Assembly (NCBI RefSeq): GCF_001434895.1
Contig: NZ_AZEE01000010.1
Coordinates: forward strand, 1 to 64,000
Direction of reading: 5' to 3'
DNA length: 64,000 bases
DNA from: Secundilactobacillus odoratitofui DSM 19909 = JCM 15043
Lineage (GTDB): Bacteria > Bacillota > Bacilli > Lactobacillales > Lactobacillaceae
Numbering within the stretch: the first letter of the stretch is position 1; every line of letters starts with the position of its first letter. Shown piece by piece: positions 52,353-60,609 of this stretch. Under the pieces are notes generated by a model that saw nothing but the letters and a program-made list of their open reading frames with translations, was not told the origin of the DNA and ran no database searches. The translations under genes were made by a program, and so were the position numbers.

Positions 52353-52655
52353 TTAAGCCTCTTTGACGTCAACTAACCACGCATCTGCTTCTTTTTCGCT
52401 GTTCAGGCTTTCGAAATCCTGATCCAATTGTGGGTTAACAGCGACAATTTCGCCACTAACTGGACTATCAATATCAGAAACCGCCTTCTCAGCTTCAACG
52501 CTCATCAACGTCTTGCCAGCAGTCACTTGATCGCCAACGCTTGGTAAATGAGCAAACTTGATGCTGCCTAATTCATCTTGGCCGGCCTTTGTTAAACCAA
52601 CCCGTGTCTTATCAGCCATCACTTTTGTCCAGAAATAAGTTGCTTCTTCACTCAT
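52353..52655 (-). CDS. gcvH: GcvH-like lipoyl protein
   Basis: Small lipoyl-domain protein of 100 residues with glycine cleavage H-protein similarity: WTKVMADKTRVGLTKAGQDELG, then the lipoylation site SVEAEKAV with Lys57. It is about 25 residues shorter than standard H protein. No gcvP or gcvT lies in the window, so a role as lipoyl carrier or relay rather than in glycine cleavage is possible. I use the ATG at 52655 after GAGGTGAAAGG. It follows rodA by 30 bases. Confidence 0.85.
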   Translation of the reverse strand: MSEEATYFWTKVMADKTRVGLTKAGQDELGSIKFAHLPSVGDQVTAGKTLMSVEAEKAVSDIDSPVSGEIVAVNPQLDQDFESLNSEKEADAWLVDVKEA

Positions 52656-52685
52656 ACCTTTCACCTCATACCAATTATTTTGATG

Positions 52686-55754: not shown

Positions 55755-57062
55755 CTATTCTTTCGTTGCTTTAGACTTGAGCACGATTTCTTCTTGATCA
55801 GGCACTTTAACCCGTTCAATTTCGGCACCTAAGGCCCGTAGCTTCAAATGGAATTCGTAGTAACCGCGATCCAGATACTTGAGATTCGTGACTTGCGTAT
55901 AACCGTTTGCCACCAAACCAGCTAAAACCAGTGCCGCAGCAGCCCGCAAATCAGTCGCAGCCACTTCAGCACCGTTAAAACTAGTTGGTCCATAGAGAGC
56001 AACCGTTCTACCTTCAACTTTAAAGTTAGCGTTCATACGGCGTAGCTCCTCAAGGTGCATGAAGCGATTTTCAAAGACGGTTTCGGTTAACGTACTCGTT
56101 CCTTGCGCACACAACTGTAAAACCGTCATCTGTGGTTGCATATCAGTTGGAAAACCGGGGTGTGGTAACGTTTTAACGTTCGTAGGTTTAAGTTGCTCAG
56201 GTCCAATCACCCGAATACCGTTCTCGAGTTCTTGTACCGTGACACCCATTTCCTCTAACTTAGAAATCAATGGTTTGTTGTGTTCGGCAATCGCATTCTC
56301 CACTAAAACGTCACCTTGGGTTAAAGCAGCCGCTACCATAAACGTCCCGGCTTCAATCCGGTCTTGCACAACGTAGTGACTCGTGCCGTGTAATTCAGCA
56401 ACACCTTCGATCCGAATCGTTTCAGTGCCGGCCCCACGAACCTTGGCACCCATCTTATTCAAGACGTTTGCTAAGTCCACGATTTCAGGTTCTCGCGCGA
56501 CGTTCTCAATGGTTGTGGTCCCCTCAGCTAAAGTCGCTGCCATCATGATGTTTTGAGTTGCACCAACACTCGGAAAATCAAGGTAAATATTGGTACCAAC
56601 CAAACGATCCGCACTGGCCTCAATGTAGCCGTCATGTTGTGAAATGGTTGCACCAAGTGCTTCAAAGCCCTTGAGATGCAAGTCCACCGGCCGTGAACCG
56701 ATGGCACAACCACCTGGCATGGCAACGCGGGCGTGCCCATAACGCGCCAAGAGTGGCCCCATCACCACGATTGATGCGCGCATTTTAGAAACATACTCGA
56801 ATGGTGCTTGCGTCGACAGTTTTTTAGCCGCGTTAAGCCGAACGGTATTGGTATCCTCATCAAAATCAACGTCCAAATTTAAAAAACGAAGGACGTTATT
56901 CATCGTGTAGACGTCAGATAAGATTGGAACGTTGGTTAACACCATGTCATCTTCTTGTGCCAGAATTGACGCTGCCAAAATTGGTAAAACCGCGTTTTTA
57001 GCACCCTCAATATGTACAGAACCCGACAATCGACGACCACCATGTACAATAATCTTTTCCAC
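55755..57062 (-). CDS. murA: UDP-N-acetylglucosamine 1-carboxyvinyltransferase
   Basis: First committed enzyme of peptidoglycan synthesis, transferring enolpyruvate from PEP to UDP-GlcNAc. The PEP-binding Cys loop is [19 protein letters not shown], with Cys near residue 117, the fosfomycin target. The 435 residues are normal. The start is a GTG (57062) after CTGGAGGG. It is downstream of a DUF1146 gene as usual in lactobacilli. Confidence 0.97.
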
Positions 57063-57085
57063 AGAAATTCCCTCCAGAAGTTTCG

Positions 57086-57316
57086 TTATTTTACTAAGAA
57101 AATTAAGTTTCGTACGTTATCAATAAAGTTTAGGAAAAATTCGCTGCAGGTATACCCCACTGCGACTGACAAAAGCACAATCAGCACCCGCGCCTGATTT
57201 GGATATAAGCGCATCACGTTTTCAATGTGTACTTTTTGAATACTCCAAAAAGCCACAAAAATGAAAACGAAGTGACTGACGATTGTTAATAACGCCTGTG
57301 CGCCAATTGTTTGCAT
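57086..57316 (-). CDS. ywzB: DUF1146 family membrane protein
   Basis: A 76-residue protein with two membrane helices (about 8-27 and 45-65) joined by a short basic loop, matching the DUF1146/YwzB family that sits between atpC and murA in Bacilli. Function unknown. The ATG at 57316 follows AAAGGA by eight bases; a GTG two codons earlier is too close to it. Here the lipoate cassette separates it from atpC. Confidence 0.85.
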
Positions 57317-57345
57317 ACTCACTTTCCTTTCTGCATTACCTCACA

Positions 57346-57374
57346 AATATAGCATATTTAAACTAGACTGTCCC
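57346..57374 (-). promoter_or_regulatory. Probable DUF1146-murA promoter
   Basis: On the minus strand GGGACA (57374-57369), 17 bases, TATATT (57351-57346) with TG at the extended position. This promoter is needed because the cassette breaks the link to the atp operon. Confidence 0.55.
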
Positions 57375-57388
57375 TGTTTTGATTGCAT

Positions 57389-57402
57389 TTGTAATATTAC
57401 AA
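57389..57402. promoter_or_regulatory. Perfect 14-base palindrome upstream of the divergent lip and DUF1146 units
   Basis: TTGTAATATTACAA, just upstream of the DUF1146 -35 box, in an AT-rich 450-base intergenic region (57317-57767) that otherwise holds no gene. A direct repeat CCTTGTGAAT occurs at 57514 and 57623, spaced 109 bases. It could be a regulator site; identity unknown. Confidence 0.4.
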
Positions 57403-57704
57403 TCTGTCCGTTATTCAAAATGGTGAAAGAATTCACATTTTACTACAATCAAGTTTATATCTGCACTTATGCTCATCATAAGCTAAATATTTAATATCCT
57501 ACAACTTTTTAAACCTTGTGAATATGACACTGATATTTCTTACAGTTACTAGAAAATCAACTAAATACTGATATGCCAAATTTATATGTTTTAAAAATAG
57601 ATAACTATATAATATAACTATTCCTTGTGAATCGTTCTGTTTTCAGTCTAAGCGCCTATGCAGTAGCGTTTATAAGCATTTATTCGTTGGAATATTTGCT
57701 CAAT

Positions 57705-57733
57705 TTCACAAAATCGCCACTGGATGTTATGCT
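57705..57733 (+). promoter_or_regulatory. Promoter of the lipoate cassette
   Basis: TTCACA, 17 bases, TATGCT, 35 bases before the first start codon. Near consensus. Confidence 0.75.
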
Positions 57734-57767
57734 CTACCCGTAAATAAATCTCAAGGGAGCTGAATCA

Positions 57768-58010
57768 ATGATGATCAAAGAAGTTCACATGCCAAAATTA
57801 AGTCCAAAGTCCGATGACTATTTCTTCGGCAAATGGGTTAAACAACCTGGTGACACCGTCAAAACTGGTGACGTCTTGTTCGAAGTTGAAACTGATAAAG
57901 TAATTAGTCAGGTTGAAAGCCAAGAAGATGGCGTCCTCACAGCTCAAAAAGTTGCCACTGGCGACACAACTAAAGTCGGTGACCTAGTAGCCACGATTGA
58001 AACAGCATAG
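57768..58010 (+). CDS. Free-standing lipoyl domain protein
   Basis: An 80-residue protein that is just one E2-type lipoyl domain: MPKLSPKSDDYFFGKWVKQPGD, then the lipoylation turn VETDKVISQVES with Lys44, then the second half DGVLTAQKVATGDTTKVGDLVATIE. No catalytic E2 domain or subunit-binding segment follows, and the stop codon is followed 12 bases later by lipA. It is presumably the substrate of LplA and LipA encoded next to it. A biotinyl carrier role is less likely because the target motif is DKV, not MKM. Confidence 0.9.
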   Translation: MMIKEVHMPKLSPKSDDYFFGKWVKQPGDTVKTGDVLFEVETDKVISQVESQEDGVLTAQKVATGDTTKVGDLVATIETA

Positions 58011-58022
58011 GGAGGAATTAAC

Positions 58023-58907
58023 ATGTCAACTAAATCTGAAACTTCTGCACCCGTAAAACCTAACTGGCTTAAAGTAACCTATGACCAAAAGAAAGTCGAT
58101 CAAATGAACGATTTACTGTCCGGGTTAAAGTTAAACACCGTTTGTGCCGAAGCAAACTGCCCTAACTTAGGCGAGTGCTTTGGTAGCGGTTCTGCATCAT
58201 TCATCATTCTTGGTCCAAACTGTACGCGTGCTTGCCGCTTCTGTGATGTTCCCCACGGTCACCCACACGAAGTGGACTTACTAGAACCATTACGTGTTGC
58301 AGAAGCAACCAAGAAGCTCGGACTCAGTCACGTGGTGGTCACCAGTGTTGACCGGGATGACTTACCAGACCTTGGTGCTGATCAATTTGTCAAAACCATC
58401 AATGCGATTAAAGAACTCAATCCCAATACGACAATTGAAGTCCTCACGCCTGATTTTCAAGGCCACGAAGACTGCCTCGATAAAGTGATTGCAGCCGGTC
58501 CTGATGTGTTTAATCACAACATGGAAACCGTCCGTAGCATCACGCCTAAAGTTCGACACCGTGCCACCTATGACACCTCACTACACGTGTTAAAGTACGT
58601 CAAGGAACATGCACCAAAATCAATGTACGTTAAAACTGGAATCATGCTCGGTCTAGGTGAAACAGACCCCGAAGTTTATCAATTAATGGATGATTTACGT
58701 GCCATTGACGTTGATTTTCTAACGATTGGCCAATATGTTCAACCCGGTCCCAAAAACTTTACCCTAAAAGAATGGGTGCCAATGGAACGTTACCAGCGTT
58801 ACTACAAGGAAGCCATGAAACGTGGTTTTAAGTTTGTCGCAAGCTCACCTTTAGTTCGAAGCTCTTACAAAGCCAAGGAAGAACTGGAGGCCGTCGAAAA
58901 TCAATGA
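58023..58907 (+). CDS. lipA: Lipoyl synthase
   Basis: Radical SAM enzyme that inserts two sulfurs into protein-bound octanoate. The auxiliary cluster cysteines are 41, 46 and 52 (VCAEANCPNLGECF), the radical SAM cluster C67, C71, C74 (CTRACRFC), and the C-terminal RSSY serine is present. The 294 residues are complete. Lactobacilli usually lack lipA and depend on exogenous lipoate, so its presence is notable. It overlaps lplA by four bases (ATGA). Confidence 0.96.
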   Translation: MSTKSETSAPVKPNWLKVTYDQKKVDQMNDLLSGLKLNTVCAEANCPNLGECFGSGSASFIILGPNCTRACRFCDVPHGHPHEVDLLEPLRVAEATKKLGLSHVVVTSVDRDDLPDLGADQFVKTINAIKELNPNTTIEVLTPDFQGHEDCLDKVIAAGPDVFNHNMETVRSITPKVRHRATYDTSLHVLKYVKEHAPKSMYVKTGIMLGLGETDPEVYQLMDDLRAIDVDFLTIGQYVQPGPKNFTLKEWVPMERYQRYYKEAMKRGFKFVASSPLVRSSYKAKEELEAVENQ

Positions 58908-59887
58908 TCTACTTCCCGCTCACTAGTCTCGATGTCAGCTATAATTTTGCAGCTGAATATTATTTAATGACCCAAAAACATCTGCAGGAGCCCGCCTTCA
59001 TGGTCTGGGCCACAACACCGACGATTATGTTAGGAAAGTACCAGGAACTTGAAAATGAGGTCAATACTCAATTTACGAGTGAACACCACATTGCCTTGGT
59101 TCGCCGTTTATCGGGTGGTGGCACAATCTACACGGATACGGGTGGCTGTCAATTTACTTTGATCACCCCCGACAATTCTGGGCAGATCGACTTTGATGAT
59201 GGCCTATCACTCCTGTCAGACGCACTAACGACGATTGGCATTCATACGAAAACGGATAGCCGTAATGACTTGATTGTGGATGGCCTAAAGGTTTCTGGAA
59301 GTGCTCAGTACATGACACCAGGTTATCGACTTCACCATGGTAGCTTATTGTTTGATGCTAATTTAGACTGGTTGGCAAAATCACTGCATGCTGATCCGAT
59401 TAAGCTGCAAGCCAAGCGAATTCAATCAGTTCGGCAACGGACCGTGAATTTAAAAAGCCAACAACCGACTTGGTCGACTGAGACCTTTAAAACCAATTTG
59501 ATCAACCAGTTAGTCAACAGTACTCATGCCAAGGTTCAAAATTTTAGCGTCCAAGAATCAAAAATAATTCAACAGCTTGCGGACAACTTGTTTGTCAATT
59601 CGGCTGAATCGCAACCTAAAACACAGCCTTACGATCATCAACAAAAAGTGTACGTTAAAGGTGCCGGCCTGATTCAAGTTGGCTATAACCTTGACAACCA
59701 TGACCAGATAGCTGCTGTCCAGTTAAACGGTGACTTCTTCAGCAACCTTGAGCCCCAGCAATTTGAAAAAGCCTTAGTGGGAACGCCCCATCAAAAATCG
59801 GCCGTCACCACGGTGCTTCAGCAGCAATTACAGCAAGCACCAATTGTTGGCATGACAGCTGAATCATTAGCCGAACTATTATTTTAA
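58904..59887 (+). CDS. lplA: Lipoate-protein ligase (LplA/LplJ)
   Basis: ATP-dependent ligase that attaches lipoate or octanoate to the domain lysine. The N-terminal catalytic domain has RRLSGGGTIYTD near residue 66, KVSGSAQY near 130 and LHHGSLLFD near 145. The C-terminal accessory domain (about 245-327) is present, so the enzyme is bidomain. The length of 327 residues equals LplJ. Translationally coupled to lipA. Confidence 0.94.
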   Translation: MIYFPLTSLDVSYNFAAEYYLMTQKHLQEPAFMVWATTPTIMLGKYQELENEVNTQFTSEHHIALVRRLSGGGTIYTDTGGCQFTLITPDNSGQIDFDDGLSLLSDALTTIGIHTKTDSRNDLIVDGLKVSGSAQYMTPGYRLHHGSLLFDANLDWLAKSLHADPIKLQAKRIQSVRQRTVNLKSQQPTWSTETFKTNLINQLVNSTHAKVQNFSVQESKIIQQLADNLFVNSAESQPKTQPYDHQQKVYVKGAGLIQVGYNLDNHDQIAAVQLNGDFFSNLEPQQFEKALVGTPHQKSAVTTVLQQQLQQAPIVGMTAESLAELLF

Positions 59888-60044
59888 TATGATTGTGGAA
59901 TATTTTCCAACCCAAATAGCATGTCAATTATCCACAAATCACCAAGAATAATGCCATGCGTCAATTCGCTAAAACGGTGAATTTAAACGACTTTGCTAGT
60001 TTGAACCATAAAATTTAATTTATGTAAATGATAAATATTACAAT

Positions 60045-60084
60045 AAAAATCACGATCCTTATAATACTGGATCGTGATTTTTTT
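60045..60084 (+). terminator. Terminator of the lipoate cassette
   Basis: The arms AAAAATCACGATCC and GGATCGTGATTTTT around a 10-base loop, followed by further T. The A tract on the other side lets it act in both directions. Confidence 0.85.
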
Positions 60085-60134
60085 AAACGCTCTGATCACT
60101 TAAGAACAATTCACCGGTTTGGACGCTTCAATCA

Positions 60135-60171
60135 ACAAAAAAACGCATCACCCAACTGGATGATGCGTTTT
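60135..60171 (-). terminator. Terminator of the atp operon
   Basis: On the minus strand, AAAACGCATCATCCAG pairs with TTGGGTGATGCGTTTT (one imperfection near the loop), followed by TTT. It sits 10 bases beyond the atpC stop. Confidence 0.85.
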
Positions 60172-60180
60172 GCTAGTCGT

Positions 60181-60609
60181 TTATTTACCAGCAACGTTAA
60201 TTCGATTAATCGCCCGACGAAGTGCAACTTCCGCACGGAGTCGTTCATCTTTATCATGGGCCTCTTCCGCCTTTTTGATTCGAGCTTCTGCCCGTTTCTT
60301 GGCGTTTTGTGCCCGATCAACGTCGATGTCACCTTGACATTCTGCTGAATCAGCAACAATTGTCGCTGTGTTTTCAGAGAATTCAACAAAACCACCGTTA
60401 ACGGCAATTTTGTCCTCTTGGTTACCATCAACAAGTTGAACGCGTGCTTCGTCAACTGCTAATGAGGCAATCACAGGAACGTGGTTCGCCATGATACCAA
60501 GTTCACCAAGTTGGGTCTTAACGACCAACATCTTGACTTGCTCGTGATCATAAACGTTACCATCGGGGGTTACGATACTAACGGTTAAAACTGATTGTGC
60601 ATCAGCCAA
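60181..60609 (-). CDS. atpC: ATP synthase epsilon subunit
   Basis: Central-stalk inhibitor subunit of F1 ATPase, 142 residues. The N-terminal beta sandwich (about 1-88) has LTVSIVTPDGNVYDHEQVKM and ELGIMANHVPVIASL, and the C-terminal helices (about 90-142) are Lys/Glu/Ala-rich. The start is a TTG (60609) after AAGGAGGGG. Last gene of the atp operon. Confidence 0.96.
   Translation of the reverse strand: MADAQSVLTVSIVTPDGNVYDHEQVKMLVVKTQLGELGIMANHVPVIASLAVDEARVQLVDGNQEDKIAVNGGFVEFSENTATIVADSAECQGDIDVDRAQNAKKRAEARIKKAEEAHDKDERLRAEVALRRAINRINVAGK

Follow-up and report, generated by a model that had tools for sequence, protein, structure and literature searches.

A tight operon of three genes in Secundilactobacillus odoratitofui, encoding a free-standing lipoyl domain (LD), a lipoyl synthase (LipA) and a lipoate ligase of the LplA type, is probably, judging from the sequences, a lipoyl-assembly module with its own dedicated carrier, LD. 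The observations that support this reading are the gene content of the genomes, strict linkage of the genes, their joint decay, a conserved lysine, an LD-LipA fusion and the grouping of LipA sequences. The operon (57768–59887) lies in a window of 64,000 nucleotides (i.e. the whole stretch of DNA analysed), which is part of contig 14 of a 2.75 Mb genome that is 99.98% complete. The features of the operon and its surroundings were as follows:

52353–52664, minus strand: GcvH-like protein, 103 aa; a possible acceptor outside the cassette, 5 kb from the trio
57705–57733, plus strand: candidate promoter-like site, TTCACA-17-TATGCT with TG before the second hexamer; 9 of 12 matches
57768–58010, plus strand: LD, free-standing lipoyl domain, 80 aa, PF00364, lipoyl Lys44 (ETDK); proposed lipoyl-assembly carrier
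58023–58907, plus strand: LipA, lipoyl synthase, 294 aa; assigned by TIGR00510, motifs and fold
58904–59887, plus strand: LplA-type ligase with catalytic and C-terminal domains, divergent, 327 aa
60047–60084, plus strand: terminator-like hairpin with a 12-bp stem, a 10-nt loop and a T run, read from the sequence

The coordinates and families agree with the operon of free lipoyl domain, LipA and LplA proposed in the original prediction, including the spacing of 12 bases between LD and lipA and the ATGA overlap at the lipA/lplA junction. LD scored 59.3 bits against PF00364 (cut-off 22.1) and carries a modifiable lysine, Lys44, that was invariant in 20 of 20 aligned sequences; it is thus a member of this family. 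PF00364 was the only Pfam family above its cut-off in the 80 residues. The E3-binding and catalytic domains were absent, so that LD is not an E2 acyltransferase, and GCV_H gave no match, so that the carrier of the cassette is not GcvH. LipA belongs among the lipoyl synthases by its TIGR00510 score (332.9 bits, cut-off 310.25) and by its two cluster motifs, CX4CX5C and CX3CX2C; it also matched radical SAM in Pfam and has kept RSSY. The ligase has kept RRLSGGG and a Lys loop. It scored above the cut-offs of PF21948 (155.3 bits) and PF10437 (42.1 bits) and slightly below that of the LplA equivalog TIGR00545 (277.3 bits, cut-off 280), and is therefore considered LplA-type but divergent; its identity was 27% to an LplA1 and 25% to LplA2 of its own genome. 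An AlphaFold chain of LD and LipA (mean pLDDT 85.6, pTM 0.78) matched 4u0p with Z 39.5 and rmsd 1.3 over 275, mainly through residues 105–379, the LipA part. Docking of LD on LipA was also considered from this chain and set aside, as the position of LD in the model is not usable as evidence.

The operon had been predicted to possess its own promoter and terminator. The promoter is a candidate site of a kind that was mildly enriched in the scan (11 found; shuffles 6.3, sd 2.7), and downstream a hairpin and T run are visible, the hairpin being absent from the scan listing because the loop limit of the scan was 8 nt. No Rfam match (riboswitch or other known RNA) was obtained in 57000–60600 at E up to 0.1, and no long conserved block was seen by eye in 12 aligned upstream stretches from Secundilactobacillus.

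A survey of 397 Lactobacillaceae genomes, some of them shared with the sample for the order used below, found LipA above the cut-off in 23, in keeping with the earlier statement that most lactobacilli lack lipA. A free LD of the window type was present in 25 of the 397 among the matches listed, in frames of 25 to 111 codons (83–111 as reported when reading through stops). Listed matches in frames of at least 200 aa were taken as E2s by frame length, and weaker matches past the listed ones were left unclassified, so that the count may omit free LDs that have diverged strongly. All 23 LipA genomes were LD genomes, and in 23 of 23 the adjacent genes lay on one strand in the order LD, lipA, lplA. 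The co-occurrence (23 of 25 LD genomes, n = 397) has a Fisher p of 2.5e-35 when the relatedness of the genomes is ignored. Across the 23 trios the gap between LD and lipA reached up to 344 bases, and in 22 of them lplA and the lipA stop share 4 bases. The two LDs without intact LipA (G304 and G256) contained internal stops, with lipA decayed or missing. Decayed trios were noted at the loci L211 and L090 (both Lentilactobacillus hilgardii) and at L095 (G256), where LD has stops and lipA is fragmented or missing, showing loss of the whole unit.

The surroundings of the trio, named by eye, were variable. In the window it is flanked by murA, mreB and ATP synthase genes; ATP synthase and murA were the flanks at 10 of 12 Secundilactobacillus loci, and other genes flanked the trio in the collinoides/paracollinoides pair. 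Of four loci with the Agrilactobacillus genus code, three lay beside glycolysis genes, and further flanks were seen elsewhere. Across these differing groups in Lactobacillaceae, the trio alone was common to all.

Beyond the family, LipA was found at E up to 1e-40 in 25 of 395 Lactobacillales genomes. The trio was present in 14 of these, the window genome and 13 genomes from four further family codes, one of them with a fusion. LDs of the other Lactobacillales families were 36–52% identical to that of the window, with frame and linkage intact. The remaining 11 LipA genomes, all of one family code, had no LD beside lipA, and a gene labelled LipM-type by its motif adjoined lipA in all four whose neighbours were read (L182, L183, L185 and L192). 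A scan of named genomes for LD was evaluated for the best 80 of 88 loci, which comprised 50 free LDs from Bacillota, 27 of E2 type (a contig end truncates one) and 3 LDs of Alphaproteobacteria situated in E1 operons. Within the fetched DNA, LipA adjoined 47 of the 50 free Bacillota LDs (in one case truncated where the contig ends) and LplA was present at 49; the exceptions were a decayed copy of Lentilactobacillus hilgardii and, for LipA, also two contig ends. The genera at these loci are, among others, Lentilactobacillus, Agrilactobacillus, Loigolactobacillus, Liquorilactobacillus, Limosilactobacillus, Trichococcus, Floricoccus, Enterococcus, Vagococcus, Alloiococcus, Facklamia and Sedimentibacter. 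In Lactobacillales the trio begins with LD; several Clostridia carry lplA upstream of LD, some with lplA on both sides, and a Vescimonas plasmid is annotated as ligase, ‘biotin/lipoyl-containing protein’, lipA and ligase. As a separate observation, the alphaproteobacterial E1a-E1b operons at L260, L262, L265 and L274 carry a lipoyl domain outside an E2; at L274 it sits in a 428-aa ‘biotin/lipoyl-containing protein’, with a separate E2 gene one gene later.

This conservation bears on the idea that LD is left over from a 2-oxoacid dehydrogenase operon, as an E2 reduced to its lipoyl domain and without a present role, which we regard as highly improbable. The window LD shared 33–44% identity with the lipoyl domains of 11 chosen E2s from E1a-E1b-E2 operons and 31% with that of its own PDH E2, and one Clostridiales contig (DMJQ01000075; loci L218 and L264) combines an E1a-E1b-E2 operon with an LD cassette, a hint of a possible origin of LD. 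However, the Vagococcus LD had no such preference (27–37% versus 30%), and the NCBIfam model that best matched LD (acetoin dehydrogenase E2, 71.5 bits) scored PDH E2 equally (73.9), so that even the origin of LD is unsure. A loss of function is itself unlikely given the identity retained across Lactobacillales families, the intact frame and linkage and the conservation over 20 aligned rows. Derivation of LD from the E2 of acetoin dehydrogenase was also considered and found to be unsupported; the E2 at L233, first taken as acetoin-type, fits PDH E2 models better.

In one genome (G872), LD and LipA form a single protein of 366 residues with LplA downstream; both parts exceeded their cut-offs (PF00364, 48.9 bits; TIGR00510, 356 bits), and this LipA is a long branch in the tree described below. 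Genomes from the phylum search with LipA frames of at least 444 aa were re-read, along with G872 and its neighbour G659, and none of the 10 re-read from that search had a fused LD. Among these, L279 and L280 (Clostridial-type genomes) encode LipB-LipA fusions with TIGR00214 and LipA above cut-off, and L278 has an 820-aa frame with LplA-type and LipA parts around an unassigned middle part; the seven remaining frames appear to be open by chance. The fusion partners of LipA are thus enzymes that provide its substrate and, in G872, the domain on which that substrate would sit.

In a LipA tree of 65 rows, 32 LD-linked LipAs were separated from 33 without LD by a branch with SH-aLRT 95; the latter are a biased sample made up of 28 from among the best phylum hits, 4 of the 11 Lactobacillales genomes above and L270, and the tree omits L239 (129 aa, too short) and L218, L225 and L244 (partial or no LipA). 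In the LplA tree, 28 downstream cassette LplAs fell outside a branch (99) holding 46 other and 6 upstream LplAs; here L222_0 is spurious (branch of 9.5), and three Sedimentibacter/Tissierellia rows labelled as cassette are upstream in position. Both trees were quick searches, unrooted and without bootstrap.

Linkage and fusion also bear on the alternative that LD is the end user of the lipoyl group, a free redox or acyl carrier (e.g. acting with E3 in peroxide defence) that lipA and lplA keep lipoylated. LD is a full lipoyl domain with an invariant lysine, it leads the operon in Lactobacillales, E3 is encoded in the genome and the trio persists in genomes without GcvH or LipL, all as this alternative would have it. 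Yet every LD genome among the 397 has LipA or a decayed LD, among the matches listed, although further LplAs able to lipoylate LD exist in the genomes checked. LD and lipA decay together and can be fused, and no further gene travels with LD in Lactobacillaceae. We consider an end-user role unlikely.

Across the rest of the genome, the picture differed in part from that originally drawn. The cassette had been described as self-contained, with no E1, E2, E3 or octanoyltransferase. The operon indeed has no E1, E2 or E3, but a PDH operon (E1a-E1b-E2-E3) is encoded elsewhere and contains the single 2-oxoacid dehydrogenase E2 of the genome; with this operon and an E2 in all genomes searched (see below), a self-contained system without a dehydrogenase is wrong for the genome. 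A LipL-like transferase is encoded as well. Neither LipB nor LipM was found in the genome by the PF21948 search, which agrees with the lack of an octanoyltransferase as far as these two are concerned. A conventional dehydrogenase and LipB or LipM had been named as evidence against the original prediction, and of these the dehydrogenase alone was found. The PF21948 proteins number five, i.e. four of LplA type (that of the cassette and three more, two of which neighbour each other) and the LipL-like one. The LipL-like protein had its best NCBIfam match in NF053589 (203 bits, below the cut-off of 400) and was weakly similar to LipM-type proteins; on this basis no LipM was counted in the genome. 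A BCCP is present, as are two GcvH-like genes, one inside the window and the second adjoining an LplA2-like gene. At the latter locus (L012:5091-7013; G000 C11), the 129-aa GcvH-like gene is divergent from the LplA2-like gene and is followed by a 101-aa gene without an NCBIfam match, an arrangement that recalls GcvH-L/LplA2 pairs. Outside the cassette, the genome appears equipped to scavenge lipoate, with three further LplAs, the two GcvH-like proteins, the LipL-like protein and E2, and the trio would add synthesis from octanoate. Three congeners without the trio (G020, G057 and G088) keep E2, LipL-like, GcvH-like and LplA genes, as expected if the trio is such an addition.

Transfer partners were searched for in 41 genomes, 36 of them with an intact trio. 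A LipL-like match was obtained in 32 of the 36 (broken in G282 and G371), and these 32 also matched GcvH clearly. The remaining four genomes with an intact trio (G191, G169, G146 and G225) had neither; their weak matches to the GcvH model were BCCPs where the frames were of GcvH size (G191 and G225) and otherwise lay in frames of 409–418 aa, the size of an E2. Over all genomes searched, LipL-like and GcvH-like proteins were jointly missing in these four and in G256 and jointly present in the other 36 of 41. The persistence of the trio in the four genomes indicates that it is independent of LipL or GcvH, and the relay there cannot be LipL; the final step calls for a different transferase or for E2 to be modified directly. 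An E2 was present in 41 of 41 genomes. An acyl-ACP thioesterase, which could provide free octanoate, was also found in 41 of 41, including the three trio-free congeners, and was rejected as a discriminating source since it occurs with and without the trio.

Based on these data, a route in three steps can be proposed. The cassette LplA would activate free octanoate with ATP and attach the octanoyl group to Lys44 of LD; LipA, by its established sulfur-insertion chemistry, would put two sulfurs into octanoyl-LD; and the lipoyl group would be handed to pyruvate dehydrogenase E2, by the LipL-like transferase where it is present and by another route where LipL is missing. From the genomes we infer the octanoylation of LD, the substrate that LplA takes and each transfer of a lipoyl group. 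That LD might be the platform on which LplA loads octanoate and LipA adds sulfur, with lipoyl then passed on, one of two roles first suggested for it, is the best reading of the strict co-occurrence, the recurrence of the trio in the order and in Clostridia, the LD-LipA fusion and the LipA grouping. According to PMC7253636, E. coli LplA attaches free octanoate, bypassing LipB, and in B. subtilis LipA acts on GcvH and LipL relays lipoyl from GcvH to E2. Human LIAS was crystallised with H protein, and the authors predict clashes with E2 domains (PMC12246082), which would be a reason for a dedicated carrier. In the light of these precedents, a free LD tied to lipA and lplA looks like a dedicated acceptor.

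The E2 found in all 41 genomes could be modified directly by LplA and LipA as in E. coli, with LD as an accessory (e.g. a docking or activating subunit) rather than a covalent intermediate. The four trio genomes without LipL and the E. coli precedent (PMC7253636) fit such a scheme, but an adaptor would need neither the invariant Lys44 nor the whole lipoyl domain that has been kept, and we judge it quite unlikely. A more specific form of the dedicated-carrier reading is put forward tentatively. LD may be a carrier without catalysis of its own, the counterpart of ACP for a cofactor, and where LipL and GcvH are lacking (Liquorilactobacillus, Loigolactobacillus) a different transferase may move lipoyl from LD to E2, possibly the cassette LplA acting as an amidotransferase.

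The trio shares features with several known systems. As in the LipM-GcvH-LipL pathway of Bacillus subtilis (LIPT2-GCSH-LIPT1 in human), LipA would assemble lipoyl on one small carrier, with a probable relay to E2, for the trio where LipL exists. The trio differs in three respects: lipA comes with a gene for a free lipoyl domain of E2 type as the carrier, the place of LipM (not found in the genome) is taken by a ligase, and four intact-trio genomes have neither LipL nor GcvH. It also resembles the E. coli LplA/LipA octanoate bypass and the ‘Lpl/LipA combinations’ reported from 14% of bacterial genomes in the accessible part of Tanabe et al. 2023 (PMC10332631), in which LplA octanoylates from free octanoate and LipA sulfurates; unlike these, it has a dedicated acceptor gene locked to lipA-lplA. 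No free lipoyl domain is mentioned in the available text of that report, whose main text has 0 occurrences of ‘lactobacill’. In sLpl(AB)-LipS1/S2 with LbpA of sulfur oxidisers, a ligase, a synthase and a small lipoyl-binding protein are likewise encoded together, whereas the synthase of the trio is LipA, LD is E2-type and not GcvH-type, and the neighbours in the window are murA, mreB and ATP synthase genes. The bifunctional LplA-LipA fusion NF053790 of NCBIfam also couples the two enzymes, but the genes of the window are separate and the ranges of the model (LplA to 325, LipA from 331) leave no room for a lipoyl domain. No description of an LD-lipA-lplA trio was found in the literature by titles and the starts of abstracts, a body of text from which most subscription journals are absent. 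The trio resembles the LipM-GcvH-LipL relay, but would use a carrier that is not an enzyme and a ligase where that relay has LipM.

In the pathways covered by the accessible parts of PMC10332631, PMC7253636 and PMC12246082, lipoate is assembled on a working part of an enzyme, E2 or GcvH. If LD is a carrier for assembly alone, the relay can run without the H protein of glycine cleavage. Genomes that lack LipL and GcvH would make it directly testable which enzyme moves the lipoyl group, a gap also noted by Tanabe et al. 2023 (PMC10332631) for LipM/LipA genomes without LipL. Such a carrier would furthermore provide a minimal three-gene kit for lipoyl-group production and would allow lactic acid bacteria that make lipoate themselves to be predicted. 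In some lactic acid bacteria and their relatives, a tiny free protein is most likely the workbench on which lipoate is built, a place held elsewhere by a working enzyme subunit.
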